Assembly: GCA_021201235.1 (NCBI GenBank)
Contig: JAJQFI010000024.1
Span: 62,001 to 126,000, forward strand
Direction of reading: 5' to 3'
DNA from: Oscillospiraceae bacterium
Lineage (GTDB): Bacteria > Bacillota > Clostridia > Oscillospirales > Ruminococcaceae
DNA length: 64,000 bases
A program made the position numbers and the translations under genes. Shown here piece by piece: positions 1 to 12,733 of this stretch; within the stretch, counting starts at the first letter, position 1; each line of letters opens with the position of its first letter. The notes beneath the pieces are model-generated. The model was given only the letters and a program-made list of their open reading frames with translations, was not told the DNA's origin and did no database searches.

Positions 1-509
1 TTGAACAAATCGTTCTTTCTGACCATAGGCTCGCCGCCTGTGTAGATATACATGTAACAACCAAGCTCCTTGCCTTGCTTAACGATAGAATCTATCGTTT
101 CGAGGCTCAGATTGAGCTTGTTTCCGTACTCAGCCGCCCAGCAACCGGTGCAATGGAGATTGCATGCCGACGTGGGGTCAAGAAGAATCGCCCAAGGAAC
201 ATTGCAGTTATACTTTTTCGACATCTCCTGCTGATAGGCATATCCGTCTATACTGTCATTAAGAAGTAAATTTTCGAAAACAGCTTTACGAACGCCCGGG
301 TCAAGCTCATACATTTTCATCATGAGCTGATACCAGTTATTTTTTTCTTCGACTGCTTTTTTTATAATTGCAATCTGCCTCTGGAATGTCTCTCCGTTAT
401 AGCTCTTCTCGAGCATATTAATAAGCTTTGGAATATTCTCTTCGGGATTTTTCTCGAGGTAGTTGAATGCCTGCCTGATTCCGAAATTCTTAAGAAGATT
501 TTTCTTCAT
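1..509 (-). CDS. Radical SAM protein, N-terminal part (cut by window edge)
   Basis: The visible 169 residues begin with about 110 helical residues and then carry the radical SAM iron-sulfur motif C-x3-C-x2-C (C116, C120, C123, in SACNLHCTGCW), followed about 20 residues later by the TGGEP motif that contacts SAM. Family members bind a 4Fe-4S cluster and cleave SAM to start radical chemistry; the substrate cannot be read from this fragment. The ATG at 509 follows a GAAAGGA-type ribosome site. The gene diverges from a cysteine-less relative at 739, with which it shares the N-terminal region and the segment around Y-N-x-[IV]-P-W. The C-terminal half, including any SPASM domain, lies outside the window. 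Confidence 0.85.
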   Translation of the reverse strand, partial: MKKNLLKNFGIRQAFNYLEKNPEENIPKLINMLEKSYNGETFQRQIAIIKKAVEEKNNWYQLMMKMYELDPGVRKAVFENLLLNDSIDGYAYQQEMSKKYNCNVPWAILLDPTSACNLHCTGCWAAEYGNKLNLSLETIDSIVKQGKELGCYMYIYTGGEPMVRKNDLF

Positions 510-650
510 TTATATCTGTCCTTTCTTGTGTGCAGAGTATTTCTCCGCTTTCCTTTATATTATTTTAATTCAAGCAAAGAAAAAAAGTCATTGGACACGA
601 AAGCACAAAGTGTGGTAAAATCGGACCTCACAAAAAAGTGTTACTTTTCG

Positions 651-672
651 GGACAAAACAGTTTATTTGTCC
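651..672. promoter_or_regulatory. 22-bp inverted repeat upstream of the radical-SAM-like/patatin operon
   Basis: Perfect 7-bp arms GGACAAA and TTTGTCC are separated by 8 bp. The repeat abuts the weak -35 (674-679) of a promoter whose -10 TATAAT is at 697-702. A near-identical repeat with the same arm and spacer length lies at 3252-3273 next to the TetR gene, so this is a candidate TetR operator. A partial copy (GGACAC...GTGTG) lies at 593-614. Confidence 0.5.
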
Positions 673-738
673 GTGTTTAAAAAAAGGACAGCAGTTTATA
701 ATTAGTACGTCTGAATTTTGTTTGAAAGAGGGTTTCTT

Positions 739-1743
739 ATGGAACAGAAAACAACTCAAATCAACGCAAAATCTATTATCGAAGCATATGTCGGCAAGAA
801 GCTTGAAGCTATGCGCGACAATCCCGACCGGGAATCAAGAAATCTCGTCGATCTGGCACTTGGTCTTTCCGCAGGGAGATTTCAGAAGCATTTCCTGAGC
901 ATAGCTCATTCCATGCTTGAAGACGAGAACAGCCCTTATTACGCACTTATTCATGATGCAATCAAAAATGTGGGAACGGCAAATATCCTTAAATTCGGAA
1001 TGAACATCGGCTACAACAGCTTTACTGCCGGTGCAAGAACAATAAGAAATCTTGAAAAAGAACGTGGTTATAATATCCCGTGGGTCATAACATTCTATGT
1101 TGATGACAAATCATTCTCGCAGGAAGCATACACCGAAGCAATCAGACAAGGAAAGAAGATGGGAATATATACCTACGTCTTCTTCTGCGAAGACATTCCC
1201 GGAAAGCTCACGGAGATATTCGACGATGAGACTGAATGTGCTTTTATGCTGTTTTCGGATGCCGAAAATATCGAAAAAGAGATATTGTCACAGGCAAGCG
1301 AAATCAAAAATCTTATGCTATGCGTCAAATACTCCGATTCAGCGGCTGAAGTATGTGAGGACTTAAGAAGCAATAAAGCTCTCTACTCGTTGTGGTATGA
1401 GTATGATAAGAATCCAATGTGTGAGAATCTTCTCAACACAGCAGATGAGCTTCATCCGGTGCTGACCTTCTTTGTCAGAACCGGTGACGACTACTCAGGC
1501 TATAGTAACACATACAACGAAGTATGTAAGCTCAGGAATTCGAGAACTGCCGCAAGCGCTCCCATGGAATTCTCGGGAACATGCAGAATGGTTGATGAAA
1601 TAATTTCAGATGATTCTTGCATCGCTGTATTCGACGAATCCGGCAAGCTGATTTCCGTTTGTAACTCCGAACAGGATTATAATTTCAGAAATCAGGCGCT
1701 TGCAGAGATTTTTGAAAAGTGCTATCCTAAGGCTGTCAAGTAA
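739..1743 (+). CDS. Degenerate radical SAM-fold protein lacking the Fe-S cysteines
   Basis: This 334-residue protein aligns by eye with the divergent radical SAM enzyme at 1-509. Both have a helical N-terminal region, then YNIPW (here residue 111) versus CNVPW, then a helix E-A-I-R-Q-G-K-K-M-G versus D-S-I-V-K-Q-G-K-E-L-G, then a strand. The loop that carries CxxxCxxC in the active protein is replaced by VDDKSFSQEA, and TGGEP is replaced by CEDIP. It should therefore be unable to bind the cluster or SAM and may be a partner or regulator. ATG 739 has a GAAAGAGG site 7 bases upstream; an in-frame TTG at 718 lacks one. Patatin follows after 21 bases. Function unknown. Confidence 0.7.
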   Translation: MEQKTTQINAKSIIEAYVGKKLEAMRDNPDRESRNLVDLALGLSAGRFQKHFLSIAHSMLEDENSPYYALIHDAIKNVGTANILKFGMNIGYNSFTAGARTIRNLEKERGYNIPWVITFYVDDKSFSQEAYTEAIRQGKKMGIYTYVFFCEDIPGKLTEIFDDETECAFMLFSDAENIEKEILSQASEIKNLMLCVKYSDSAAEVCEDLRSNKALYSLWYEYDKNPMCENLLNTADELHPVLTFFVRTGDDYSGYSNTYNEVCKLRNSRTAASAPMEFSGTCRMVDEIISDDSCIAVFDESGKLISVCNSEQDYNFRNQALAEIFEKCYPKAVK

Positions 1744-1764
1744 AAATTGAAAGAGGGAAATAAT

Positions 1765-2604
1765 ATGAAAACGGGAATTGTAGATGTCGGCGGCAGAATG
1801 AGAGGAATCTATGCCTGTGGCATTATGGACTATTGCATGGAGCATGGCATAAACTTTGACTTGGGAATCGGTGTTTCTGCCGGTGCCGCAAACATTTGCA
1901 CGTTTCTTGCAGGACAGAAATGCAGAAATTACATGTTCTACACTGAATATAATGCAAGAAAAGAATCTATGAGCCTTTCTAATCTCCTAAAGAAAGGCTC
2001 ATACATAGATATGGACTATATTTACGGAAAGCTCAGTAATGCGGATGGGGAGTATCCCTTTGACTTTGATGCCTTACTGACTAACCCCGCAGAGCTATTG
2101 GTTGTAGCCGAGAATGCAATAACCGGCGAGGCAAAATACTTCACCAAGGACTATATCAGTCAGGACAATCTCGACATTGTGAAAGCCTCCTGCTCAATTC
2201 CATATGTCAACAAACCATACTATGTTGATGGCGAGCCGTACTTTGACGGAGCCCTCGGTGATCCTGTTCCGGTTGAGAAATCAATCTCTATGGGATGCGA
2301 TAGAGTGGTTCTGATTCTCAGCAAGCCCCGTGATGTCCTCAGGCTTCCGAAGCGCGACATTGCAATAGCAAAGAGAATCAGAAAAGAATATCCCGTCTCT
2401 GCCGAAAGAATCAGCGGCAGGGCAGACCACTACAACTCTCAGCTTGAAACGGCAAAGAAATTAGAGGCAGAGGGCAAGGTTCTCATTCTTGCTCCCGATG
2501 ACACCTGTGGAGTGGATACCCTGACCAAAGAAAAAGAACCCCTTGATAAACTTTATCAGAAGGGGATTAAAGATGCAGAAAAAATCCCGCCGTTCTTGGC
2601 TTAA
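1765..2604 (+). CDS. Patatin-like phospholipase
   Basis: A 279-residue cytoplasmic-type patatin (YjjU-like). The glycine-rich oxyanion loop DVGGRMRG is at residues 6-13, the nucleophile elbow is GVSAG (about residues 38-42), and the second dyad residue is in DGALGD (about residues 161-166). The family uses a Ser-Asp dyad to release acyl chains from lipids. It is cotranscribed with the radical-SAM-like gene 21 bases upstream and converges on the TetR gene. ATG 1765 was chosen because AAAGAGGG lies 7 bases upstream; the TTG at 1747 has no ribosome site. The physiological lipid is not evident. Confidence 0.85.
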   Translation: MKTGIVDVGGRMRGIYACGIMDYCMEHGINFDLGIGVSAGAANICTFLAGQKCRNYMFYTEYNARKESMSLSNLLKKGSYIDMDYIYGKLSNADGEYPFDFDALLTNPAELLVVAENAITGEAKYFTKDYISQDNLDIVKASCSIPYVNKPYYVDGEPYFDGALGDPVPVEKSISMGCDRVVLILSKPRDVLRLPKRDIAIAKRIRKEYPVSAERISGRADHYNSQLETAKKLEAEGKVLILAPDDTCGVDTLTKEKEPLDKLYQKGIKDAEKIPPFLA

Positions 2605-2624
2605 CCTGAACGACGGGTAAAAAT

Positions 2625-3170
2625 TCAGTTCTCCGAAGGAAGGATCTTGTCCAATATTTTTGAAAACGAGCGAGCGCAGGACGCAATCTTCTTTAAGAAC
2701 TCGTCAGGTGTGTCACATTTCTTTGAAGTAAGCCATCTTTCGATTGTGCAAACAAGAGCGTCGGCATAAAAATTGAGCTGAAAGTCTTCATATTCGTTCA
2801 AAAGCTCGCCAAAGCTCGAGCGCAACGTTACACGAAGCATTTCTCTGAAGTAGTCGGAAAACGAGTTCTGGCCTTCAATCTGAAGCGCAGGCTTGTAGAA
2901 CTTGCGGTTGTCGTAAAGGTAATAGCAGAGAACACCAAAAAGTTCCCAGCTCGTCTTTGCTGAGTTATCTCTGACGAGAAGCAAAAACTCGGAATCGAAA
3001 ACCCAGTTTACAAGGTCATACTTGTCCTTGAAATGATAATAGAAGCTTTTTCTGTTCATCCCACATCTTTCACAGATATCGGTTACACTGATTTTTGAAA
3101 AAGGCTCTTCGGTCATCAATTCTTTCAGCGAAGATGCAAGAGCACGCTTTGTGATATTCGAATCTGCCAC
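2625..3170 (-). CDS. TetR/AcrR family regulator (DhaS-like C-terminal domain)
   Basis: This 181-residue protein has an N-terminal TetR helix-turn-helix (about residues 23-50, ISVTDICERCGMNRKSFYYHF) and an all-helical C-terminal domain of the DhaS/TetR_C type. The start is GTG at 3170, with GGAGG 7 bases upstream; the ATG four bases further upstream is out of frame. It diverges from the AI-2E-type transporter gene, and the region between them holds an inverted repeat (3252-3273) also found before the patatin operon. It probably controls itself, the transporter and the radical SAM/patatin genes. The ligand is unknown. Confidence 0.85.
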   Translation of the reverse strand: MADSNITKRALASSLKELMTEEPFSKISVTDICERCGMNRKSFYYHFKDKYDLVNWVFDSEFLLLVRDNSAKTSWELFGVLCYYLYDNRKFYKPALQIEGQNSFSDYFREMLRVTLRSSFGELLNEYEDFQLNFYADALVCTIERWLTSKKCDTPDEFLKKIASCARSFSKILDKILPSEN

Positions 3171-3251
3171 TCATATTCCTCCCTTCGTCGCAATATTACT
3201 ATTGTACTAAAATTTCGACAACTTTTCAAGTACCATGTGTCAAAGAATCAC

Positions 3252-3273
3252 GGACAATCTACTACTTTTGTCC
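3252..3273. promoter_or_regulatory. Second copy of the GGACAA-N-TTGTCC inverted repeat
   Basis: Arms GGACAAT and TTTGTCC (6 of 7 pair) are separated by 8 bp, giving the same 22-bp geometry as 651-672. The site lies in the tetR/transporter divergent region, 8 bp before the transporter ribosome site, where a bound repressor would block transcription. Its left arm extends to ATCACGGACAAT, whose reverse complement also occurs at 12894-12905. Confidence 0.5.
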
Positions 3274-3294
3274 AAACAATAAAGGAGAAATTGT

Positions 3295-4497
3295 ATGAAC
3301 CTCAGTTGGAGAACCTGTCTCAAGGCTGTCGTGAGCGCAGCAATACTATTCTTGTTTGTACACTTCGTCGACAGCATATTCGCGGCTTTGGGCATTGCTA
3401 TGAATGCGCTCAATCCGCTTATCGCAGGGCTCGTAATCGCATATGTAGTAAATATCCCAACGAGCTTTTATGAGCGGCACTACTTTCCGAACAGTGAGAA
3501 AAGCTCTGTGGCAAAAAGCCGCAGACCGGTCTGCATGCTCTTAGGCTACCTGACTATAATTCTCGTTATTGTTTTGGTGCTTCTGCTCGTAATTCCGCAG
3601 TTCGTTTCCTGCATCAAGACCTTCATAGATCAACTTCCGTCGCTGGTTCTTTCAATTCTTGAGAACAAGACGGTCGTGGGACTCCTTCCCGACAGCATTA
3701 TAGAATGGCTTGAAGGCATTAATTGGAACGAAATAGCTTCCAACGTAAGCAGTATTATCGGTATAATATCGTTGCTTTCAACAAGCATAACCGATGTAAT
3801 AAGCGATATTCAAGGCACCGTGAACACGGTAACAAGTGTTGCTCCCGCAGTGGTATCTGTTCTGTCCACCGCTATAATCGGCGTTGTATTCTCAGTGTAT
3901 TTTCTCTCCGCCAAAGACAGACTTCTCAGGCAGTTCAAAAAGCTTTCCGAAACCTATCTCAAGCCCAAGTGGCACGACAGAATTTATTATGTCTTGGGAA
4001 CTCTCAACGAAAGCTATCACGGCTACATCGTTGTCCAGTGCACGGAAGCGGTTCTTTTGGGAACGCTCTGCACCATCGGAATGCTGATATTACAGCTTCC
4101 GTATCCCACCATGATAGGTGCGCTGATCGGATTGACTGCACTCATTCCTATAGCAGGAGCATGGATAGGAACGATAATCGGCGCATTCATGATACTGACA
4201 GTAAGCCCGATTCAGGCAGTGATATTCATACTTTTCATTCTGGTTCTGCAGTTTGTCGACAACTACTTCATTTATCCGAGAATAGTAGGTAAGTCAATCG
4301 GACTTCCATCCGTATGGGTGCTCGCCGCCGTCAGCGTAGGCGGAGGGATATTCGGAATTCCCGGAATGCTCATTTGCGTGCCGTTGTTCTCAGCGATATA
4401 CAAGCTTTTAAAGACAGATGTCGATAAGAGAAACGGCGAAAGTGGGGAATCGGGCGAGGTTCCCAAAATTGAGACGATTGAAAACGCGGAAACGTGA
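3295..4497 (+). CDS. AI-2E family transporter (PerM/YdiK type)
   Basis: A 400-residue polytopic membrane protein with the AI-2E exporter family layout. A hydrophobic pair is followed by LNPLIAGLVIAYVVNIP, then a long soluble insertion (about residues 110-200), then a cluster of C-terminal membrane helices containing the family signature around GALIGLTALIPIAGAWIG and QFVDNYFIYPRIVGKSIGL. Members export autoinducer-2, peptides or ions, so the substrate is open. ATG 3295 has AAAGGAG 7 bases upstream. It diverges from tetR. A bidirectional terminator at 4505-4532 separates it from tRNA-Ala. Confidence 0.88.
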   Translation: MNLSWRTCLKAVVSAAILFLFVHFVDSIFAALGIAMNALNPLIAGLVIAYVVNIPTSFYERHYFPNSEKSSVAKSRRPVCMLLGYLTIILVIVLVLLLVIPQFVSCIKTFIDQLPSLVLSILENKTVVGLLPDSIIEWLEGINWNEIASNVSSIIGIISLLSTSITDVISDIQGTVNTVTSVAPAVVSVLSTAIIGVVFSVYFLSAKDRLLRQFKKLSETYLKPKWHDRIYYVLGTLNESYHGYIVVQCTEAVLLGTLCTIGMLILQLPYPTMIGALIGLTALIPIAGAWIGTIIGAFMILTVSPIQAVIFILFILVLQFVDNYFIYPRIVGKSIGLPSVWVLAAVSVGGGIFGIPGMLICVPLFSAIYKLLKTDVDKRNGESGESGEVPKIETIENAET

Positions 4498-4504
4498 ATA
4501 TAAA

Positions 4505-4532
4505 ACAAAAAATCCTCTTCCGAGAATTTTTT
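4505..4532. terminator. Bidirectional terminator between AI-2E gene and tRNA-Ala
   Basis: The hairpin AAAAATCCTC-TTCC-GAGAATTTTT is flanked by A and T runs, so it can stop the plus-strand transporter gene and the minus-strand tRNA-Ala. Confidence 0.65.
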
Positions 4533-4534
4533 AT

Positions 4535-4610
4535 TGGTGGACCCGATGGGACTTGAACCCACGCTCTCCGCGTTGCGAACGCGGCGCTTTACCAACTAAG
4601 CCACGAGCCC
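4535..4610 (-). tRNA. tRNA-Ala (anticodon CGC)
   Basis: Reading the minus strand gives a full cloverleaf. The acceptor GGGCTCG pairs with CGGGTCC, the anticodon arm CCGCG-TTCGCAA-CGCGG presents CGC, the T-loop is GTTCAAGTC, and the 3' CCA is encoded. Its promoter on the minus strand has -35 TTGACA (4649-4654), a 17-base spacer and -10 TAAAAT (4626-4631). Confidence 0.95.
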
Positions 4611-4707
4611 GTATCAACGAGAATTATTTTATCTCTAAATGCGCCGTTTGTCAAGTCATTTTTGAGATTTTTCTCGTTGAATTTGAATTTAAATGCGTCC
4701 GGATGCA

Positions 4708-6039
4708 TCAGTCTTTGTCTTCGTCCTCGTCTTCGTTGACCTCTGGAGGAAGCTTTTTGACGATTGCGTAGTCAATCATGTGATCCTTTACATTTTTGAC
4801 GTCAATCGCAAGCCCGCAGGACTCGCACTGGAAGCTTTCGCCCTCCTCGGGAACTCTGCTTATAATCTCGCAGATAAATCCGCTGAACGTGTCAAACGTG
4901 TCTGTCGGTAGCGATACCCCAAGAGCTTCCTCAACCTCGTCAAGCTCGGCACAGCCCTGGATGCACCATGTGTCTTCGTCAAGCTCTGCAATGTCGTCAG
5001 GCTTCGGAGGAGCTTCTTCCTCTTCGAGCTCGCCGACGAGCTCCTCTATAAGGTCGTGAAGAGTAACAATACCCGACATTCCGCCATATTCATCCAGGAC
5101 AACGGCAAAGTAGTTTCTAGATTTCTTCATTTCGGCAAACAGAGCGTTCGCACGCATTTCCTCGGGAACAAAGAACGGCTTATTGACGGCATGCTCCATC
5201 ATGTAGTCGATGCTTCTGTCTTCGGAACGGAAATAGTCCTTGGTGTCAAGAATTCCGACGACATTATCTGGCGAGTCCTGACATACAGGATAATATGAAT
5301 GTCGGCTCTCCATAATTGTCTTTGCCCAGATTTCTTCGCCATCCTCGATATAGAGGAATATAACATCTCTGCGACGCGTGCTGACCTGCTCGGCAGTCAT
5401 ATCGGTGAAATCGAAAACGTTATTGATAAGCTCGCTCTCTTCCTCCATAATGGTGCCCTGCTCGTTGCCTTCGGCAAGCATCAGCTTGATTTCCTCTTCC
5501 GTAACGACATCATCATCGCTGTTGGGGTCGATTCCCAGAATTCTGAGGACCCCATTGGTTGACTTTGTAAGTAACCAGACGAGCGGAGCGCATAATTTCG
5601 ACATGACATACATCATTCCGGAAAGCCCGAGAGCAATCTGCTCGGTTTTCTTCATCGCAAGCCTTTTAGGGACAAGCTCGCCGAAAACTATACTGAAATA
5701 GGTCACAAGAAGCGTCACGATAACAAGGATAACGGGGTAGAGAACAGCTCTTGTAACCGGAATCCCAACGCTTATGAGCGCCTCTGTAAGAGGGTCCGCA
5801 AAGTTGTCAGCGGCGATAGCACCGCCGAGCAAGCTTGCCAAGGTTATTGCAACCTGAATCGTTGCCAGGAATTTGGACGGCTCCTCAGTAAGCGCAAGAA
5901 GCTTCTTTGCTCTTTTGTCACCATCCTGAGCCATCTGTTTAAGCTTGGTGTCGTTCATGGAAATGACGGCGATTTCGGCACAGGAAAAGACGGAATTAAA
6001 CGCTATAAGTAATATTTGCAATATAATTGCCTGAACCAT
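4708..6039 (-). CDS. CNNM/CBS-domain transporter (HlyC/CorC family)
   Basis: A 443-residue protein with an N-terminal CNNM (DUF21) membrane domain of four hydrophobic segments, including FNSVFSCAEIAVISMN and the FGELVPKRLAMKK motif. A CBS pair (about residues 200-335) and a C-terminal CorC_HlyC domain follow. The family is linked to Mg2+/Co2+ efflux; the hemolysin name is historical. The ATG at 6039 begins MVQAIILQ; an upstream TTG would add an unlikely tail. A promoter at 6256-6284 leaves a leader of about 210 bases that contains a possible small ORF. The C-terminus is strongly acidic (EDEDEDKD). Confidence 0.88.
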   Translation of the reverse strand: MVQAIILQILLIAFNSVFSCAEIAVISMNDTKLKQMAQDGDKRAKKLLALTEEPSKFLATIQVAITLASLLGGAIAADNFADPLTEALISVGIPVTRAVLYPVILVIVTLLVTYFSIVFGELVPKRLAMKKTEQIALGLSGMMYVMSKLCAPLVWLLTKSTNGVLRILGIDPNSDDDVVTEEEIKLMLAEGNEQGTIMEEESELINNVFDFTDMTAEQVSTRRRDVIFLYIEDGEEIWAKTIMESRHSYYPVCQDSPDNVVGILDTKDYFRSEDRSIDYMMEHAVNKPFFVPEEMRANALFAEMKKSRNYFAVVLDEYGGMSGIVTLHDLIEELVGELEEEEAPPKPDDIAELDEDTWCIQGCAELDEVEEALGVSLPTDTFDTFSGFICEIISRVPEEGESFQCESCGLAIDVKNVKDHMIDYAIVKKLPPEVNEDEDEDKD

Positions 6040-6118
6040 GATTAGTATAAGATCCTTTCGTAAAAACAGTATGAAACACAAAAAGGCACAGCCTTTCACA
6101 ACGTTATGAAGACCATAC

Positions 6119-6205
6119 CTACTCAATCATTCTGTCTAAAACGACGCAAGATGCTACTATATACTCAGTATTGTGGTCACAATCCCCATCGGAACTGTCA
6201 TCCAT
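6119..6205 (-). CDS. Possible 28-residue leader peptide upstream of the CNNM gene
   Basis: Within the leader of the CNNM transporter mRNA an ATG at 6205 opens a 28-codon frame (MDDSSDGDCDHNTEYIVASC..., ending DRMIE), with AGGAG about 11 bases upstream. It is followed by a short hairpin (AAAGGC-TGT-GCCTTT at 6082-6096) and then the transporter start. An acidic leader peptide before an Mg2+-linked transporter could be regulatory, but the ribosome site is distant and the ORF may be chance. Confidence 0.25.
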   Translation of the reverse strand: MDDSSDGDCDHNTEYIVASCVVLDRMIE

Positions 6206-6255
6206 CAAGTCTCACACTCCTAATAAATACTCGCCGAAAATATCCGGTTGCGATA

Positions 6256-6284
6256 AATATATCATATTCTCGAAGTTTTGTCAA
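6256..6284 (-). promoter_or_regulatory. Promoter of the CNNM transporter
   Basis: On the minus strand TTGACA (6279-6284) is followed by a 17-base spacer and TATATT (6256-6261). Predicted transcription starts near 6249, giving an unusually long leader of about 210 bases. Confidence 0.7.
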
Positions 6285-6322
6285 TAGGTGATTGGGGACA
6301 AATGAACTAATTCGAGCAAAGA

Positions 6323-6354
6323 TAAAAAAATAACCTCCGAAAAATCGGAGGTTG
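6323..6354 (-). terminator. Terminator of tRNA-Arg
   Basis: A perfect 9-bp stem AACCTCCGA / TCGGAGGTT with a TTTT loop is followed on the minus strand by A and a run of seven T, directly after the CCA end of the tRNA. Confidence 0.9.
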
Positions 6355-6428
6355 GCGCGCCCGGGGGGATTCGAACCCACGACCTACCGGTTCGTAGCCG
6401 GGCACTCTATCCACTGAGCTACGGGCGC
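6353..6428 (-). tRNA. tRNA-Arg (anticodon ACG)
   Basis: The cloverleaf is complete. Acceptor GCGCCCG pairs with CGGGCGC, the anticodon loop CTACGAA gives ACG, the T-arm is GTGGGTTCGAATCCC and CCA is encoded. The minus-strand promoter is TTGACA (6484-6489), 17 bases, TATTAT (6461-6466). Confidence 0.95.
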
Positions 6429-6560
6429 ATTTGCAAGCGGTATTCCGCTCACAGTTAGATATAATAACACACCGACTTAAATTTGTCAAGGCTTTTTTCT
6501 TCAAATTCTGTACCAAAAACATAACCGCACAACTGTCACATTTTGTACCTCTATTTACTA

Positions 6561-6589
6561 TTGCAAACAGGAAAGCTTTTTGATATAAT
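6561..6589 (+). promoter_or_regulatory. Promoter of lon
   Basis: TTGCAA (6561-6566), 17-base spacer, TATAAT (6584-6589). The leader to the lon start is about 115 bases and includes a 7-bp hairpin TGCGCAA/TTGCGCA (6665-6682). No CIRCE or CtsR operator was recognised. Confidence 0.65.
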
Positions 6590-6711
6590 AGGACAAGTAG
6601 TATTTTTCCGTATAAGCTACGGGACATATTGCTTCTGAATAATTATGAAATAACTATTTGTGCCTGCGCAACGTTTTGCGCATCGCATTTGTACTGATAA
6701 GGAGAAAGATA

Positions 6712-9132
6712 ATGACACCTACAAGAAATACTCAGCTGAGTCTGCCGTGTGTCGCAACTAGAGACTTTATCGTCATGCCTCATATGTCTTTGAAGTTTGA
6801 TGTTATGCGTCCCAAGTCCGTGGCGGCTCTTCGGGAGGCACTCCTCGGCGACAGACTCGTTTTCATGACCGCACAGAAGGACATAAACATCTCAGACCCC
6901 GCAGAAAATGATATCTACAAAATAGGCACAGTATGCGAAATAAAGCAGATTATAAATCTCAGCGAAGGAGCTTCTAGAGTCAGGGTAGAGGGTCTGTACA
7001 GAGCCAAGCTTCTCGAATATTCCGATGACGGAATCAGCCTTCATGCGGTTGTCAAGCCGATGAAAAACTATGGCAAGGATAAAATCCCCGATGAGGAGAT
7101 TGACGCCTTCTGCCGTGTCGTAAAGGCGGCGTTTGAGGCTTACTCCTCAGTCGTTCCGAGAATGCCTGATGAACTCAAGCATGCTGTCATGACTGCAGAC
7201 GACCCTGTAATGCTTTTTGAGAGCATAGTCTTCAATATTCCGATGCTCACCGAAGACCGTCAGCAGCTTCTGGAGGCTAACACGCTCAGTGAAAAGCTCT
7301 CAATAACCCTGGCTCTTCTCACAAGAGAGACTCAGGTATTGTCAATCGAGAACGATATACATACCAAGGTCAGTGAGGCTATAGACAAGGGTCAGAGGGA
7401 ATATTATCTCCGCGAAGAGCTTCGCATCATCAAGGATGAGCTCGGCGAAACCGACGATATCGACGAAGAGGCAGAAGAGTATGTCGAAAAGATATACAGC
7501 CTCAAGCTCAACGAAGAATGCACCGAAAAGCTCATATCCGAGGCTGAAAGGCTTATGAAGATGCCCTACGGCTCTCAGGAGGCGGCTGTAATAAGAAGCT
7601 ATCTCGATACCGTTCTGGAGCTTCCGTGGAATGTTGAAACGGAGGATAATCTCGATATCGAAAAGGTTTCCGCTCAGCTCGACAAAGACCACTACGGCAT
7701 GAAGAAGGTCAAGGAAAGAATTCTTGAACTCCTGTCTGTCAGAGTGCTCAACAGCGACGTAAAGGGTCAGATTATCTGCCTTGTCGGACCTCCCGGCGTC
7801 GGAAAGACTTCAATCGGCAAGTCAATTGCGGACGCTCTCGGAAGAAAGTACGTCAGGGTCTCACTCGGCGGAGTTAAGGACGAAGCCGATATAAGAGGTC
7901 ACAGAAAGACCTACATAGGCTCAATGCCCGGAAGAATCATAACAGCCGTCAAGCAGGCGGGTTCAAGCAATCCTCTCATACTTCTTGACGAAATTGACAA
8001 GATGGCTAACGATTTCAGGGGAGACCCCGCAAGCGCAATGCTCGAGGTTCTCGACAGCGAGCAGAACAAGGAGTTCAGAGACCACTATATCGAGCTACCA
8101 TTTGATTTGTCTCATGCTATCTTTGTAACCACTGCAAATAACATAGACACCATCTCACCTCCGCTTCTTGACAGAATGGACGTTATCGAGCTTCCGAGCT
8201 ACACTCGCGAAGAAAAGTTCGAGATAGCAAAACGCCATCTCGTTCCGAAGCAGGTTAAGCTTAACGGTCTTAACGGCAATAAAATCCGCTTCACAGATGC
8301 GGCTCTCTACGAGCTTGTCGACTACTACACAAGGGAAGCCGGCGTCAGAAGCCTCGAAAGACTTTTAGCAACCGTCTGCCGTAAAGCCGCAAAGGAAATC
8401 GTAACAGGCGAATCCCACAGAGTTACGGTCTCTCCCAAAACGATAGAAGAGTACCTCGGTGCAAGAAAGTACCTGGGCGACCTGAAATCGGATAAGTCTC
8501 AGGTCGGCGAAGTCAACGGTCTTGCATGGACTTCCGTCGGCGGCACTCTGATGCCTCTTGAAGTTCTCTCGGTTCCCGGCAAGGGAGTAATAGAGCTTAC
8601 GGGCTCTTTGGGCGATGTCATGAAGGAAAGCGCTAAGATTGCCGTGACATACGCAAGAAGCGTTGCGGATAAGTACGATATAGACAGCGATTTCTACCAG
8701 AAGCGAGACATCCATATCCATGCACCGGAGGGTGCGGTTCCGAAGGATGGACCTTCGGCGGGTGTAACGCTTGCGACGGGAATAATCTCTGAGCTTTCCG
8801 GATTGAAGGTCCGTTCGGATGTAGCTATGACCGGAGAAATAACGCTTCGCGGAAAAGTTCTTGCAATAGGCGGACTCAGAGAGAAAACAATGGCGGCATA
8901 CAAAGCCGGAATCAAGACAGTCATCATTCCCGCCGCCAACAAGCCCGATCTTGAAGAAGTCGACGACAAGGTCAAGCAGGGATTGGACTTCGTCTTTGCC
9001 GATACTATTGAGGATGTCCTCGATGTTGCGTTAATTCGGGAACAAACTGAACAGAGGAAGACGATAAACCCAGCGGCTTTCAAACAGGTTGAGAAAACTC
9101 CCGTGGGGGTGCGACTCGATGGGAAACGGTAA
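6712..9132 (+). CDS. lon: Endopeptidase La (Lon protease)
   Basis: An ATP-dependent serine protease of 806 residues, the normal size, that degrades damaged and regulatory proteins in the cytoplasm. The N-terminal LON substrate domain is followed by the AAA+ module with Walker A GPPGVGKTS (about residue 360) and Walker B ILLDEIDKM. The protease domain has catalytic Ser in KDGPSAG (about 682) and Lys in GGLREK, 43 residues later as in E. coli Lon. ATG 6712 follows AAGGAG; the upstream TTG at 6658 has no site. It overlaps engB by 14 bases, a conserved Firmicutes arrangement. Confidence 0.97.
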   Translation: MTPTRNTQLSLPCVATRDFIVMPHMSLKFDVMRPKSVAALREALLGDRLVFMTAQKDINISDPAENDIYKIGTVCEIKQIINLSEGASRVRVEGLYRAKLLEYSDDGISLHAVVKPMKNYGKDKIPDEEIDAFCRVVKAAFEAYSSVVPRMPDELKHAVMTADDPVMLFESIVFNIPMLTEDRQQLLEANTLSEKLSITLALLTRETQVLSIENDIHTKVSEAIDKGQREYYLREELRIIKDELGETDDIDEEAEEYVEKIYSLKLNEECTEKLISEAERLMKMPYGSQEAAVIRSYLDTVLELPWNVETEDNLDIEKVSAQLDKDHYGMKKVKERILELLSVRVLNSDVKGQIICLVGPPGVGKTSIGKSIADALGRKYVRVSLGGVKDEADIRGHRKTYIGSMPGRIITAVKQAGSSNPLILLDEIDKMANDFRGDPASAMLEVLDSEQNKEFRDHYIELPFDLSHAIFVTTANNIDTISPPLLDRMDVIELPSYTREEKFEIAKRHLVPKQVKLNGLNGNKIRFTDAALYELVDYYTREAGVRSLERLLATVCRKAAKEIVTGESHRVTVSPKTIEEYLGARKYLGDLKSDKSQVGEVNGLAWTSVGGTLMPLEVLSVPGKGVIELTGSLGDVMKESAKIAVTYARSVADKYDIDSDFYQKRDIHIHAPEGAVPKDGPSAGVTLATGIISELSGLKVRSDVAMTGEITLRGKVLAIGGLREKTMAAYKAGIKTVIIPAANKPDLEEVDDKVKQGLDFVFADTIEDVLDVALIREQTEQRKTINPAAFKQVEKTPVGVRLDGKR

Positions 9133-9727
9133 TCATCGCTTCGATAACGCGGAATTCTTCGCGGCATATGGTACGTTTGAACAGCTTCCGAAGCCGGAGA
9201 AAACTGAAATTGTTTTCGTCGGGCGTTCAAATGTCGGTAAGTCCTCGCTGATTAATAAGATTTTCGCAAGAAAATCCCTTGCCCGAGTCAGCTCTGAGCC
9301 AGGAAAAACAAGAACAATCAACTTTTACCGCCTCGGGGAGATTTATTTCGTGGATCTTCCCGGGTACGGTTATGCAAAAGTCTCAAAGTCCGAAAAGGCG
9401 AGATGGAATAAACTTATTTCCGGATACCTTTCCGACCCCGAGCGTGATATCGGAATAGTATTCTCGCTTATAGACATGCGGCATCCGCCGACAGCAGATG
9501 ACATCACAATGATAAACTTTCTTATCGACACCGAGCTTCCGTTCTGCATTGTCCTGACTAAATCGGATAAGCTGAACAAATCCAAAAGGGCGGCACGTCT
9601 TGAAGCCCTGAAGGATGAAATACCCTGCCTTTCGCAGATAACCGTAATTCCGTTTTCAGCATTGTCCGGAGAGGGAACAGAGGAAATCAGGGGAGTTATC
9701 GAAGAAGTTACGGAAAATCAGGACTAA
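9119..9727 (+). CDS. engB: Ribosome biogenesis GTPase EngB/YsxC
   Basis: A 202-residue GTPase needed for large ribosomal subunit assembly. The G motifs are all visible: G1 GRSNVGKSS, G2 region PGKTRTINF, G3 DLPGYGYAK, G4 TKSDK and G5 SALSG. ATG 9119 lies inside the end of lon with GGGGGTG 7 bases upstream, suggesting translational coupling. The lon-engB order is typical of Firmicutes. Confidence 0.95.
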   Translation: MGNGNHRFDNAEFFAAYGTFEQLPKPEKTEIVFVGRSNVGKSSLINKIFARKSLARVSSEPGKTRTINFYRLGEIYFVDLPGYGYAKVSKSEKARWNKLISGYLSDPERDIGIVFSLIDMRHPPTADDITMINFLIDTELPFCIVLTKSDKLNKSKRAARLEALKDEIPCLSQITVIPFSALSGEGTEEIRGVIEEVTENQD

Positions 9728-9765
9728 AATTTCGTCAATCTTTCACAAATATATTGATATAGGTC

Positions 9766-9794
9766 TTTACTTTTTACTTTCAGTATGTTAAAAT
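9766..9794 (+). promoter_or_regulatory. Promoter of the YerC-methyltransferase pair
   Basis: TTTACT (9766-9771), 17-base spacer, TAAAAT (9789-9794), ahead of the ATG at 9852. Confidence 0.5.
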
Positions 9795-9851
9795 GTGTTT
9801 GTACGAAATACAAAATCGAGATTTTGAACAAGACATTGAAAAGGTGATAAC

Positions 9852-10160
9852 ATGAATCCAAAATCCAACAAAAAGCATATCGAGGACCTTTATGCGGCAA
9901 TCCTTACTCTCGAAACCCGTGACGAATGCGAGCAATTTTTCGCAGATTTGTGCACCGCTATCGAAGTCGACACCCTTGCACAGCGTTTCGAGGTTGCCAA
10001 GATGCTCAAAGAAGGGCACATCTATGCAGATATAGTTGTCGCTACCGGTGCTTCGACAGCTACTATCAGCCGTGTCAATCGTTCTGTCAACTACGGAGTC
10101 GGCGGATATGACATTGCCCTCGGCAGACTCAAGGAAAATGAATCCGACAGCGAAAACTGA
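9852..10160 (+). CDS. YerC/YecD family TrpR-like DNA-binding protein
   Basis: This 102-residue protein belongs to the TrpR superfamily as found in Firmicutes (YerC). The helix-turn-helix is at about residues 55-80, in YADIVVATGASTATISRVNR, preceded by the helical ALAQRFEVAKML-like scaffold. The role of YerC is not settled; tryptophan binding should not be assumed. ATG 9852 follows AAGGTG. Its last 23 bases overlap a methyltransferase gene, so the two are probably cotranscribed. Confidence 0.85.
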   Translation: MNPKSNKKHIEDLYAAILTLETRDECEQFFADLCTAIEVDTLAQRFEVAKMLKEGHIYADIVVATGASTATISRVNRSVNYGVGGYDIALGRLKENESDSEN

Positions 10161-10896
10161 TAGCTACGGCATTTTTGCCGACTACTATGATCGGTTCACA
10201 AAAAACGTGAGCTATGTTTCTTATGCCAGAAGGATAGACGAAATCGTCATGCAGAGGCACATGAAGCGTGGCTCTGTTGTTGATATAGGCTGTGGGACGG
10301 GGACTATTGATTTGCTTTTAGCCAAAATGGGCTATCGGGTTACCGGAATCGACCGTTCCTATGAAATGCTTACGGTTGCCGATAAAAAGCTACGGGACGC
10401 CGGGTTGAAAGCCACATTTGTCCGTCAGGACATGACAAAGTTGACTTTGCCGCAAAAGGCGGATGTGATTATATCGACTCTTGACGGCATCAACCACCTG
10501 AAATCCGCAGATGATGTATTAACGACGTTTTCACGGGTATCGAAAAATCTCAGGCATGGTGGCACCTTTGTCTTTGACATGAATACAATATACAAGCATA
10601 GAAGTATTCTCGGCAATAACTGTTTTATCTTTGATACCGATGATGTCTATCTCGGCTGGCAGAATGATTACAGGGCATGTGATGAGAGTGTGCTGATTAC
10701 TCTTGATTTCTTTGTCAGAGAAGATAAAATCAGGCGTTATACCGAATCGTTCAGAGAAAAAGCCTATCCCGTAATGAAGATTTTCGGTATGCTCATCAAA
10801 TCTGGGCTTGTTCCACTTGAAATCTACGACGGCATCGGTCATAAACCGCCGAAGAAAACGTCTGACAGACTGCTCATAATTGCGGGCAAGCTTTGA
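10138..10896 (+). CDS. Class I SAM-dependent methyltransferase
   Basis: A 252-residue Rossmann-fold methyltransferase. Motif I is VVDIGCGTGTIDLLL (about residues 44-58), the acidic motif II end is GIDRSYEML, and the motif III region is VIISTLDGINHL. It resembles the methyltransferase family with a small C-terminal DUF-like beta extension. The substrate is unknown. ATG 10138 (MNPTAKTDSYG) overlaps the YerC-like gene by 23 bases and follows AAGGAAA. hslO begins 16 bases downstream. Confidence 0.85.
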   Translation: MNPTAKTDSYGIFADYYDRFTKNVSYVSYARRIDEIVMQRHMKRGSVVDIGCGTGTIDLLLAKMGYRVTGIDRSYEMLTVADKKLRDAGLKATFVRQDMTKLTLPQKADVIISTLDGINHLKSADDVLTTFSRVSKNLRHGGTFVFDMNTIYKHRSILGNNCFIFDTDDVYLGWQNDYRACDESVLITLDFFVREDKIRRYTESFREKAYPVMKIFGMLIKSGLVPLEIYDGIGHKPPKKTSDRLLIIAGKL

Positions 10897-10912
10897 ACTA
10901 AGGAAGATACAA

Positions 10913-11782
10913 ATGGGAAGAATAGTAAGAACAATATCAAAAGACGCATCCGTTGTCTGCTCTGCTATTGACGGGACAGACATCGTCTCTGAAATAGAGA
11001 AAATTCACAGGACCTCCGCAGTCGTAACCGCCGCTCTCGGCAGACTTGCGATGGGAACCTCGCTTATCGGCTTCGGCTTAAAGGACGAGGGCGACAGCGT
11101 AACCCTCAGAATCAACGGTGGGGGACCAATCGGAAGCCTGACTGCCGTATCCGACTACCTCGGAAATGTAAAATGCTATTGCGATAACAATATCGTCGAA
11201 ATTCCATTAAGACCCGACGGTAAACTCAATGTCGGCGGAGCAGTTGGCACAGACGGCACGCTCTCGGTTATCAAGGACCTTGGATTGAAAGAGCCATACA
11301 TCGGACAGACAGAGCTCGTGAGCGGAGAAATAGCCGAAGATATTACCGAATACTTTGCCGAAAGCGAACAGACCCCGACAGTCTGCGCGCTCGGAGTACT
11401 GGTTAATCCCGGCCTGACCGTCAAGCGAGCCGGAGGATTTCTTTTACAGCTTCTTCCTTTTGCCCCCGATGAGTCGATGGACATAATCGAAAGAAATATC
11501 TCGAAAATCTCGAGCGTTACGAGTCTCATGGAGCAGGGAATGAGTGCCGAGGATATCGCTCTTATGACACTTGATGGACTCGAGCCGAACGCGCTTGATG
11601 ATTTCGAAGTGAGCTATCGTTGCGACTGTTCGCGCGAAAGAACCGAAAGGATTCTGAAGAGCCTCGGAGAAAAAGAACTAAAAGAGCTATCGCAGGATGA
11701 GACAACGGAAGTCAAATGCCATTTCTGCGGCAAAGCATATAATTTCACTTCTGCGGAAATTCTTTCTCTTATAGAAAAATAG
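10913..11782 (+). CDS. hslO: Redox-regulated chaperone Hsp33
   Basis: A 289-residue chaperone activated by oxidation and unfolding. The N-terminal domain (about residues 1-180) carries RINGGGPIGSL. The C-terminal zinc centre has C-x-C (YRCDCSRER) and C-x2-C (VKCHFCGKAY), the four cysteines that release zinc on oxidation. ATG 10913 follows AAGGAAG. It ends only 3 bases before the -35 of the tRNA-Cys promoter. Confidence 0.96.
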   Translation: MGRIVRTISKDASVVCSAIDGTDIVSEIEKIHRTSAVVTAALGRLAMGTSLIGFGLKDEGDSVTLRINGGGPIGSLTAVSDYLGNVKCYCDNNIVEIPLRPDGKLNVGGAVGTDGTLSVIKDLGLKEPYIGQTELVSGEIAEDITEYFAESEQTPTVCALGVLVNPGLTVKRAGGFLLQLLPFAPDESMDIIERNISKISSVTSLMEQGMSAEDIALMTLDGLEPNALDDFEVSYRCDCSRERTERILKSLGEKELKELSQDETTEVKCHFCGKAYNFTSAEILSLIEK

Positions 11783-11785
11783 GTC

Positions 11786-11843
11786 TTGACAAATGGCGCA
11801 TTCTCGTGTATAATACTGGAGTCGGTTGCGAAAAGCGACCGAC
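11786..11843 (+). promoter_or_regulatory. Consensus promoter and leader hairpin of tRNA-Cys
   Basis: TTGACA (11786-11791), 17 bases, TATAAT (11809-11814) is a perfect consensus promoter. Transcription should start near 11821, directly at a 9-bp hairpin GTCGGTTGC-GAAAA-GCGACCGAC (11821-11843) that precedes the tRNA by 7 bases. The hairpin may guide or delay 5' processing. Confidence 0.75.
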
Positions 11844-11850
11844 GGAATAC

Positions 11851-11924
11851 GGTGTCATAGCCAAGTGGTAAGGCGTAGGACTGCAACTCCTTGACCCCCG
11901 GTTCAAATCCGGGTGACACCTCCA
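11851..11924 (+). tRNA. tRNA-Cys (anticodon GCA)
   Basis: Acceptor GGTGTCA pairs with TGACACC, the anticodon loop CTGCAAC gives GCA, the T-arm is CCGGTTCAAATCCGG and CCA is encoded. A 12-bp GC-rich terminator follows directly. Confidence 0.95.
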
Positions 11925-11926
11925 AA

Positions 11927-11957
11927 AAATCCCCGACTGCTTCGGTCGGGGATTTTC
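11927..11957. terminator. Terminator of tRNA-Cys, shared with the araC-type gene
   Basis: The stem ATCCCCGAC / GTCGGGGAT is flanked by an A run on one side and a T run on the other, so it can serve both the tRNA (plus) and the convergent AraC-family gene (minus). Confidence 0.85.
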
Positions 11958-11968
11958 TTGTTTTTACG

Positions 11969-12733
11969 CTACTCATGTTGTTCGTTTTTTCGATAAGCCA
12001 GTGGGGAAGTGCCGGTAACGGCTTTGAACTGCCGACAGAAATGCTCAACATTCTGATAACCGCAAAGGCTCGCTATCTTCTGAGAGTTGAAATCGGTCGT
12101 TACAAGATAATTCTTTGCAAGATCGATTCGCATACTGACAACGTCCTGCATACACGAGACGCCAAATTGCTTTTTGTAGATGTTCTGGAGATAGCCGGAG
12201 CTTAAATGAAGCTTGTCCGCCATTATGTCCACTGTCCAATGATAGTAAGGCTTAAGCCTTATCTCATATCTCAAATCTATAAGTGCCCTCTGCTGATCTG
12301 TAATCTCGGCTTCCTGTGCCGATTCTTTGATTTTCCACAGAAGCATCCTTAAGAGCATTGATATTGACATCGACGAATAGTCAAACCTGAAATAATTCTC
12401 CATAGACAAGAGCTCAAAGAGCTTCTGAAAGCTTTCGGGGGAATTTAGCTGAACCAAAGTCTCCGTCGGGACGTTGTCATTCGTTACGAAGCTTTCGTCA
12501 GTCTTGAATCTCACATAATCGTTGACATAAGGACAGTTATACGCCTGATAGTAAGCAAGGGCGTTCGGGGGATACAGGATTGCACTGTTGGGATGGCAGA
12601 TAATATCGCCCGAGGGCAGATGAAACAGCGCCGGAGATTTGACGTACAGAAGCAACCAGAAGTCATTCCTTACTCCGTATACAAAATCCTCCGGATGGGT
12701 TGCATTGAGCTGCATAAAGCATATATCAATCAT
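11969..12733 (-). CDS. AraC family transcriptional regulator
   Basis: A 254-residue regulator with an N-terminal cupin-like sensing domain and a C-terminal AraC double helix-turn-helix (about residues 155-250, ending CGYQNVEHFCRQFKAVTGTSPLAYRK, the family signature). AraC proteins of this type usually sense sugars. The ATG at 12733 follows GGGAGG. Its minus-strand promoter is TTGACA (12796-12801), 17 bases, CATACT (12773-12778). It diverges from the cohesin-type surface gene, and two 12-bp direct repeats lie between them. Confidence 0.9.
   Translation of the reverse strand: MIDICFMQLNATHPEDFVYGVRNDFWLLLYVKSPALFHLPSGDIICHPNSAILYPPNALAYYQAYNCPYVNDYVRFKTDESFVTNDNVPTETLVQLNSPESFQKLFELLSMENYFRFDYSSMSISMLLRMLLWKIKESAQEAEITDQQRALIDLRYEIRLKPYYHWTVDIMADKLHLSSGYLQNIYKKQFGVSCMQDVVSMRIDLAKNYLVTTDFNSQKIASLCGYQNVEHFCRQFKAVTGTSPLAYRKNEQHE

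Follow-up and report, generated by a model that had tools for sequence, protein, structure and literature searches.

Why does a relative of a radical SAM enzyme that lacks the characteristic cysteines stand beside the enzyme itself, and what does it do there? The question is raised by the left 4.5 kb of a 64,000-nucleotide stretch of DNA from an Oscillospiraceae bacterium (G000:C9:62001-126000, here called the window), in which the genes A, B, P, T and X follow one another in this order (Table 1). A first-pass annotation had seen in B the pseudoenzyme subunit of a lipid- or membrane-modifying system, formed with A and the patatin-like hydrolase P and placed under the nearby TetR protein T.

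Table 1. Features of the left part of the window (window coordinates; operators are predictions)
Feature	Position	Strand	Basis
A: radical SAM/SPASM enzyme, N-terminal part in window	1..509	-	Radical_SAM 3.5e-17, SPASM 1.3e-4
Possible second-operator remnant	593..614		GGACA left half kept, right half lost
Predicted T operator GGACAAAACAGTTTATTTGTCC, A-B divergent promoter region	651..672		palindrome search
B: cluster-less pseudo-radical-SAM protein, 334 aa	739..1743	+	homology to A, fold, motif loss
P: patatin-like acyl hydrolase with DUF6363, optional passenger	1765..2604	+	Patatin 1.1e-18, DUF6363 1.7e-11
T: DhaS-type TetR regulator, convergent to B, GTG start	2625..3170	-	TIGR02366
Second predicted T operator GGACAATCTACTACTTTTGTCC, between T and X	3252..3273		palindrome search
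X: AI-2E family permease, divergent from T across operator	3295..4497	+	9.1e-44

Gene organisation and sets of loci

The frame of A (509..1, reverse strand) crosses the edge of the window; in the host genome the gene is complete (G000:C9:61151-62509) and encodes 452 amino acids, and it is this complete protein that gave the two domain matches in Table 1. Its AF2 structure prediction reached a pLDDT of 86.3. No model scored above its cut-off among the best 25 of 51 NCBIfam matches of A; a membrane-spanning-lipid synthase is a role that we take to be possible for it. B starts with the ATG at 739, and the patatin gene most likely starts with the ATG at 1765, since GAAAGAGGG lies directly upstream. 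A promoter scan found 5 promoters where 5.1 were expected, and an Rfam scan of positions 1-12000 found three tRNAs and nothing else.

Loci with B were collected in two sets: the best 80 of 154 named relatives found, ten of which are close relatives of the window (78-95% identity), and 31 loci from 297 genomes of the taxonomic family. The two sets overlap by at least seven contigs of identical length (for example L096/G271 and L120/G038), so that the pooled counts used below (107, 100 and 116) contain duplicates. Neighbours were counted only where the flank was sufficient, and many of the sequences come from metagenome bins.

Relationship of B to the radical SAM enzymes

A direct comparison of B with A gave a BLASTP E-value of 5e-7 at 18% identity. 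Comparison of the two profiles with hhalign gave 5.7e-41 over 330 columns, and the likeness is therefore not due to chance. In the joint alignment the motifs YNIPW and CNVPW are in register, B is without the CxxxCxxC loop, and TGGEP is replaced. The structure predicted for B with AF2 (pLDDT 88.4, pTM 0.89) had radical SAM proteins as its best matches with Foldseek and VIA. By descent and by its modelled fold, a partial TIM-barrel, B can be placed in the radical SAM superfamily. The description of B as a cysteine-less radical SAM relative, made in the first-pass annotation from the sequence, is thus confirmed in the profiles, the motifs and the structural match.

The signatures of an active enzyme are missing throughout the pooled set of B proteins. 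CxxxCxxC, which binds the 4Fe-4S cluster, was found at the position that it has in the enzymes in none of 116 B frames; the single C...C..C among them (L057, from residue 238) lies outside this position. The GGEP motif for SAM was likewise found in 0 of 116 B frames, compared with 84 of 84 A frames, and the SPASM cysteines of A are not kept in B in the aligned pair from the window. The absence of CxxxCxxC at the enzyme position and of GGEP separates B from the radical SAM/SPASM enzymes SuiB, PqqE and SkfB and from viperin. Searches with Pfam and NCBIfam gave no match for B of the window (queried as the longer frame from 718), and none of 25 B family members matched any of these models at 0.01. 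In this B differs from TIGR04347, an annotated pseudo-SAM model and a weak match of A, in which a radical SAM relative is likewise named a pseudo-enzyme. The B profile matched no PDB chain sequence at E <= 1, and a PHROGs search gave a single weak match (0.018). Nothing on B was found in searches of open-access papers, a result of little weight, as the result lists were partly swamped by unrelated papers. Metagenome bins labelled Oscillospiraceae or Ruminococcus are the source of the ten named relatives closest to B of the window (78-95% identity). At residue 281, B of the window has a Thr where 99% of 105 B rows and 100% of 76 A rows have an Asp.

A tree built with a quick method from 30 B, 32 A and 7 outgroup proteins, in which several long B branches were flagged, showed B as one clade with a support of 100 on a long stem. 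When compared with its congeners, B had dN/dS values of 0.06-0.21 in 7 pairs, and A had values of 0.02-0.035 in 5 pairs; several of these pairs were near saturation in dS. These ratios demonstrate purifying selection at the level of the B sequence. The faster evolution of B compared with A could be taken as the mark of a functionless, decaying remnant of a duplicated A, an explanation to which we give almost no credence: although dS is near saturation in several pairs, dN/dS is well below 1, and the single supported clade, the conserved residues and the conserved promoter sites speak against decay. B as a pseudogene was rejected on the ratios, the clade and the residues. The residues R31, R34, D38, Q49, G91, T96, R103 and E106 are conserved in B and different in A, and all lie in the helical domain; several barrel residues are common to both proteins. 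Judged by the alignment, the catalytic centre of B has been lost and parts of the barrel have been retained, and B may have gained a new surface.

Neighbourhoods of B

The divergent arrangement of A and B seen in the window recurs in 42 of 70 eligible named loci and in 12 of 27 family loci. T follows B convergently in 49 of 62 named and 18 of 26 family loci. Of the 55 named loci with sequence on both flanks, 32 have A and T, 13 have T only, 2 A only and 8 neither; for the 23 such family loci the numbers are 10, 7, 0 and 6. Among the named loci, 18 of 72 had a patatin gene directly after B, and among the family loci 4 of 28. The patatin-centred system that had been proposed for this locus is not supported by these counts, on which we also rejected a patatin-based operon as the core of the system.

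Other families recur within 4.5 kb of B or A (141 loci: 116 with B, pooled, and 25 with A only; families named by Pfam on one representative each), namely the DegV family (31), cation P-type ATPases (24), ABC ATPases (21) and VTT-domain proteins (11). DegV-family proteins are fatty-acid-binding proteins; the genes (PF02645, checked on one representative) are found at L162:1206-2027 and in 30 further B or A loci. In view of patatin, and of the DegV-family genes in many loci, a link to lipids is possible. One locus from a bin labelled Chloroflexi (L119) contains the complete A-B-patatin-T cluster, by transfer or by misbinning.

The regulator T

T passed the DhaS model TIGR02366 narrowly, with 131.7 bits against a curated cut-off of 129. 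All 47 B-linked T proteins scanned matched the model at E <= 1e-5, their standing relative to the cut-off not being given. The nearest solved relatives of T by sequence are 4mk6 (8.5e-21) and DhaS (2iu5, 8.3e-15). A GQNS[FL] motif in the C-domain was present in 91 of 97 T proteins compared with none of 22 other TetR proteins of the loci, a contrast that is partly circular, as the motif is part of the profile by which T was selected. DhaK and DhaQ belong to the Dak1 family. Of the 29 T genomes, 5 contain a Dak1 protein, and the host genome is among the 24 that do not; the search was positive for the L. lactis genome used as control. By its model match T is classed with the DhaS-type regulators, and most of the T genomes have neither DhaK nor DhaQ. 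A classical dha regulator was rejected, as the genome has no Dak1. The NCBIfam label (DhaS equivalog, dihydroxyacetone kinase activator) is probably an over-annotation, since the score is barely above the cut-off and the genome is without Dak1.

A TetR gene of another class adjoins A in 8 of 22 A-only loci (L185, L186, L187, L190, L192, L193, L194 and L197). The T profile gave these proteins scores of 49-111, compared with about 290 for T, and no GGAC operator is located before A there. All eight match TIGR02366, the one score given (54 bits) being below the cut-off. A may be TetR-controlled more generally.

Co-occurrence and co-divergence of A, B and T

Among the 297 family genomes, B was found in 31, A in 34 and T in 29; B and T share 25 genomes, B and A 18, and T and A 13 (Fisher 1e-26, 7e-12 and 1e-6, values that ignore kinship). 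In 393 genomes of the class, B was found in 14 and T in 17, and all 14 B genomes contained T (Fisher 4e-23, again irrespective of kinship). The host genome is part of both sets. T was found in none of the 16 family genomes that have A and lack B, and 12 of the 25 family genomes with both B and T are without A. In the family, B was called at E <= 1e-9 (30 genomes) with the addition of G064 at 1.7e-7; the other 13 of 44 genomes matching at 1e-3 gave A-type frames of 455-628 aa. The call for A was E <= 1e-100 (34 of 58 genomes matching at 1e-20), in assemblies that may be incomplete. T was called at 200 bits or more in the family (29 of 123 genomes matching at 1e-22), while class calls required at least 194 bits for B (next score 129) and at least 199 for T (next 173). 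The T cuts of 200 and 199 were chosen after the scores had been seen, and in the family the next lower scores are 194 in G007, which is without B, and 190 in G151, which has it. The three profiles were built partly from genomes that were then searched; T and B profiles came partly from the same family genomes, and co-detection is therefore favoured there.

The association of B and T extends beyond direct neighbourhood. Of the 25 family genomes with both, 7 have them on different contigs, and in at least six (G107, G035, G213, G267, G143 and G064) they are not neighbours, since at least one gene lies well inside its contig and the other is absent from it. In G223 each gene is at the end of its contig, so that a gap could separate true neighbours, and the different contigs of B and T in G324 from the class may also reflect a gap. 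In six of the 31 B genomes no T reached the cut: the adjacent T of G151 scored 190 bits, B is at a contig end in G137 and G067, and G052 is 66% complete; G062 and G274, both 99% complete, remain unexplained. T without B was found in the family in G281 and G060 (both beside a P-type-ATPase-like frame), G148 and G225 (beside an MMPL-like frame), and in the class in G343, G487 and G497. Since T stands beside A without B in G343 and G487, it can exist, and presumably also act, without B.

Protein distances were compared for 40 loci with A, B and T (47 before near-duplicates were dropped). The correlation between B and T was high (rho 0.81) and, given A, still amounted to 0.70, a value reached in none of 500 permutations; the partial correlations were 0.23 for B and A given T (11 of 500) and 0.25 for A and T given B (7 of 500). 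In these distances the divergence of B tracks that of T, not that of A, and shared transfer of a B-T block could add to the correlation. Taken by co-occurrence and neighbourhood, the DhaS-type TetR protein T is the closest companion of B.

These data bear directly on the idea that B forms a heterodimer with A as the pseudoenzyme subunit of a lipid-modifying system. B is a paralogue of A and frequently its divergent neighbour, A is present in 18 of the 31 B genomes (Fisher 7e-12), and patatin and DegV-family genes are nearby, all of which speaks for such a heterodimer. However, 13 of 31 B genomes are without A, 16 of 34 A genomes are without B, and most of the correlation between B and A vanishes once T is taken into account. 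An obligate A-B enzyme thus finds no support, and we regard a subunit role of B as improbable. The survey of homologues proposed in the first-pass annotation gave a mixed answer: the outcome that would have refuted the reading, homologues of B mostly without A, did not arise, but patatin proved to be an optional neighbour. The TetR protein is indeed nearby; it had been given an incidental role, although it is a more constant partner of B than A is. As a whole, the earlier reading is partly supported.

Predicted operators

The palindrome GGACA-N12-TGTCC occurs twice in the window (Table 1) where 0.03 sites were expected. The whole 2.06-Mb genome contains five such sites, compared with one in the reversed control, and the other three are inside reading frames, one of them TetR-like. 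Of 111 pooled loci, 4 were left out because their flank was too short. In 62 of the other 107 the 300 nt before B contain GGAC-N14-GTCC, compared with 0 or 1 for four control half-sites and four altered spacings; in the remaining 45 of 107 loci no exact operator was found before B. Within 350 nt before T it was present in 39 of 97 cases, with 0-3 for six controls. In A-only loci it was found neither before A (0/22) nor before the other TetR genes (0/12). X, divergent from T across the second predicted operator, is a possible target of T.

The operators are often doubled. An exact site was present in 51 of 100 pooled loci (congeners left out), and 30 of the 51 had another site, with one mismatch or none, at a distance of 57 or 58 bp. 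A spacing of 29 bp was found in three loci, and the other spacings from 23 to 119 occurred on average in 0.04 loci and in at most 2. The remnant in the window lies exactly 58 bp before the intact site, with 4 mismatches in 8 scored bases. Exact spacings of 57/58 bp are seen, among others, at L121:5335/5393, L155:7826/7884 and L174:7843/7872/7901, the last with 29-bp spacing as well. Because the spacing is fixed at 57/58 bp, the doubled sites suggest cooperative binding. In the eight genomes in which B and T are on separate contigs, a site with at most one mismatch was found before B only in G107 and G324, and none before T. Similar but decayed palindromes were seen by eye in separate-contig genomes of the genus g36.

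Operators before B would be just as well explained if T, as an ordinary repressor or activator, simply controlled B, and if B were an effector with a separate function, either as a binding protein or with a new, non-radical activity in the old barrel. The operator precedes B also without a neighbouring T in G107, B is found without A or T nearby in L050, L051, L053 and L054, and T is found without B in seven genomes. However, a partial correlation of 0.70 together with near-complete co-occurrence would exceed what is expected for a regulator and one of several targets, and T has a further apparent target in X (operator at 3252). We consider the target explanation rather unlikely, yet the main competitor.

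B as a possible co-regulator of T

In the dha operon system of Lactococcus lactis, DhaS is an activator, which is unusual for TetR proteins, and works with DhaQ, a dead paralogue of DhaK; the DhaS site is GGACACAT-N6-ATTTGTCC. Here, too, a DhaS-type TetR protein stands beside a catalytically dead paralogue of the enzyme that it possibly controls, and the 22-bp palindromes with GGACA and TGTCC half-sites predicted between enzyme and dead copy, and again between T and X, resemble the DhaS motif. The two systems differ in that B goes back to a radical SAM enzyme instead of DhaK, that the putative co-regulator is not of the Dak1 family, and that the operators here are often doubled. A physical complex, ligand sensing and activation of transcription, as in the DhaS-DhaQ system, would be putative properties of B and T. 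In the literature, DhaQ is named a coactivator and DhaS an activator (the latter also in PMC12647141), and in one case DhaS is said to be both activator and repressor.

Because the locus repeats the DhaS-DhaQ layout with different parts, we favour B as a pseudoenzyme co-regulator of T, tentatively and at slightly less than an even chance. B would be a paralogue of a radical SAM enzyme in which the iron-sulfur and SAM site has disappeared and which now acts in the service of T. In both the A/B and the T/X promoter region, the GGAC-N14-GTCC palindrome would be the binding site of T. The barrel of B might bind a small ligand, possibly a lipid or else the substrate or product of A, and B could alter the activity of T by direct contact through its remodelled N-terminal helical domain. 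The regulon would presumably comprise A, X, B and T, with a sign of regulation that is likewise conjectural. That B travels more closely with T than with the working enzyme A suggests that a dead enzyme is now part of a gene switch. It is conceivable, though we are less than convinced, that B bridges or tunes T dimers on the doubled operators 58 bp apart, thereby reporting the level of the substrate or product of A, and that the conversion took place once, long ago.

If B is a co-regulator, the DhaQ principle would have arisen a second time and independently, from an enzyme superfamily unrelated to the first. Dead enzyme paralogues as partners of DhaS-type TetR proteins would then be a repeatable design that reaches beyond dihydroxyacetone metabolism, and gene control would be added to the roles of the radical SAM fold. 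Such a finding would also offer a handle on A, as any ligand of B should lie near what A converts or produces.

A lipid signal for B and T is plausible because of the patatin and DegV-family neighbours and because a pneumococcal regulator with a DhaS-like fold is tied to membrane homeostasis. According to the accessible part of the report (PMC12647141), the predicted fold of this TetR-family protein, SPV_0647, resembles 4MK6 and DhaS, and its link to fakB3 is a speculation of the authors. 4MK6 and DhaS are also the nearest PDB relatives of T by sequence, the likeness to SPV_0647 being one of fold description; that part of the report mentions no radical SAM relative, which sets SPV_0647 apart from T.

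A cation P-type ATPase gene (Pfam checked on L040) is located near T in L231, L232, L040 and L043, in the first two of which B is absent. Since it is near T even where B is absent, the ATPase may be another target of T.
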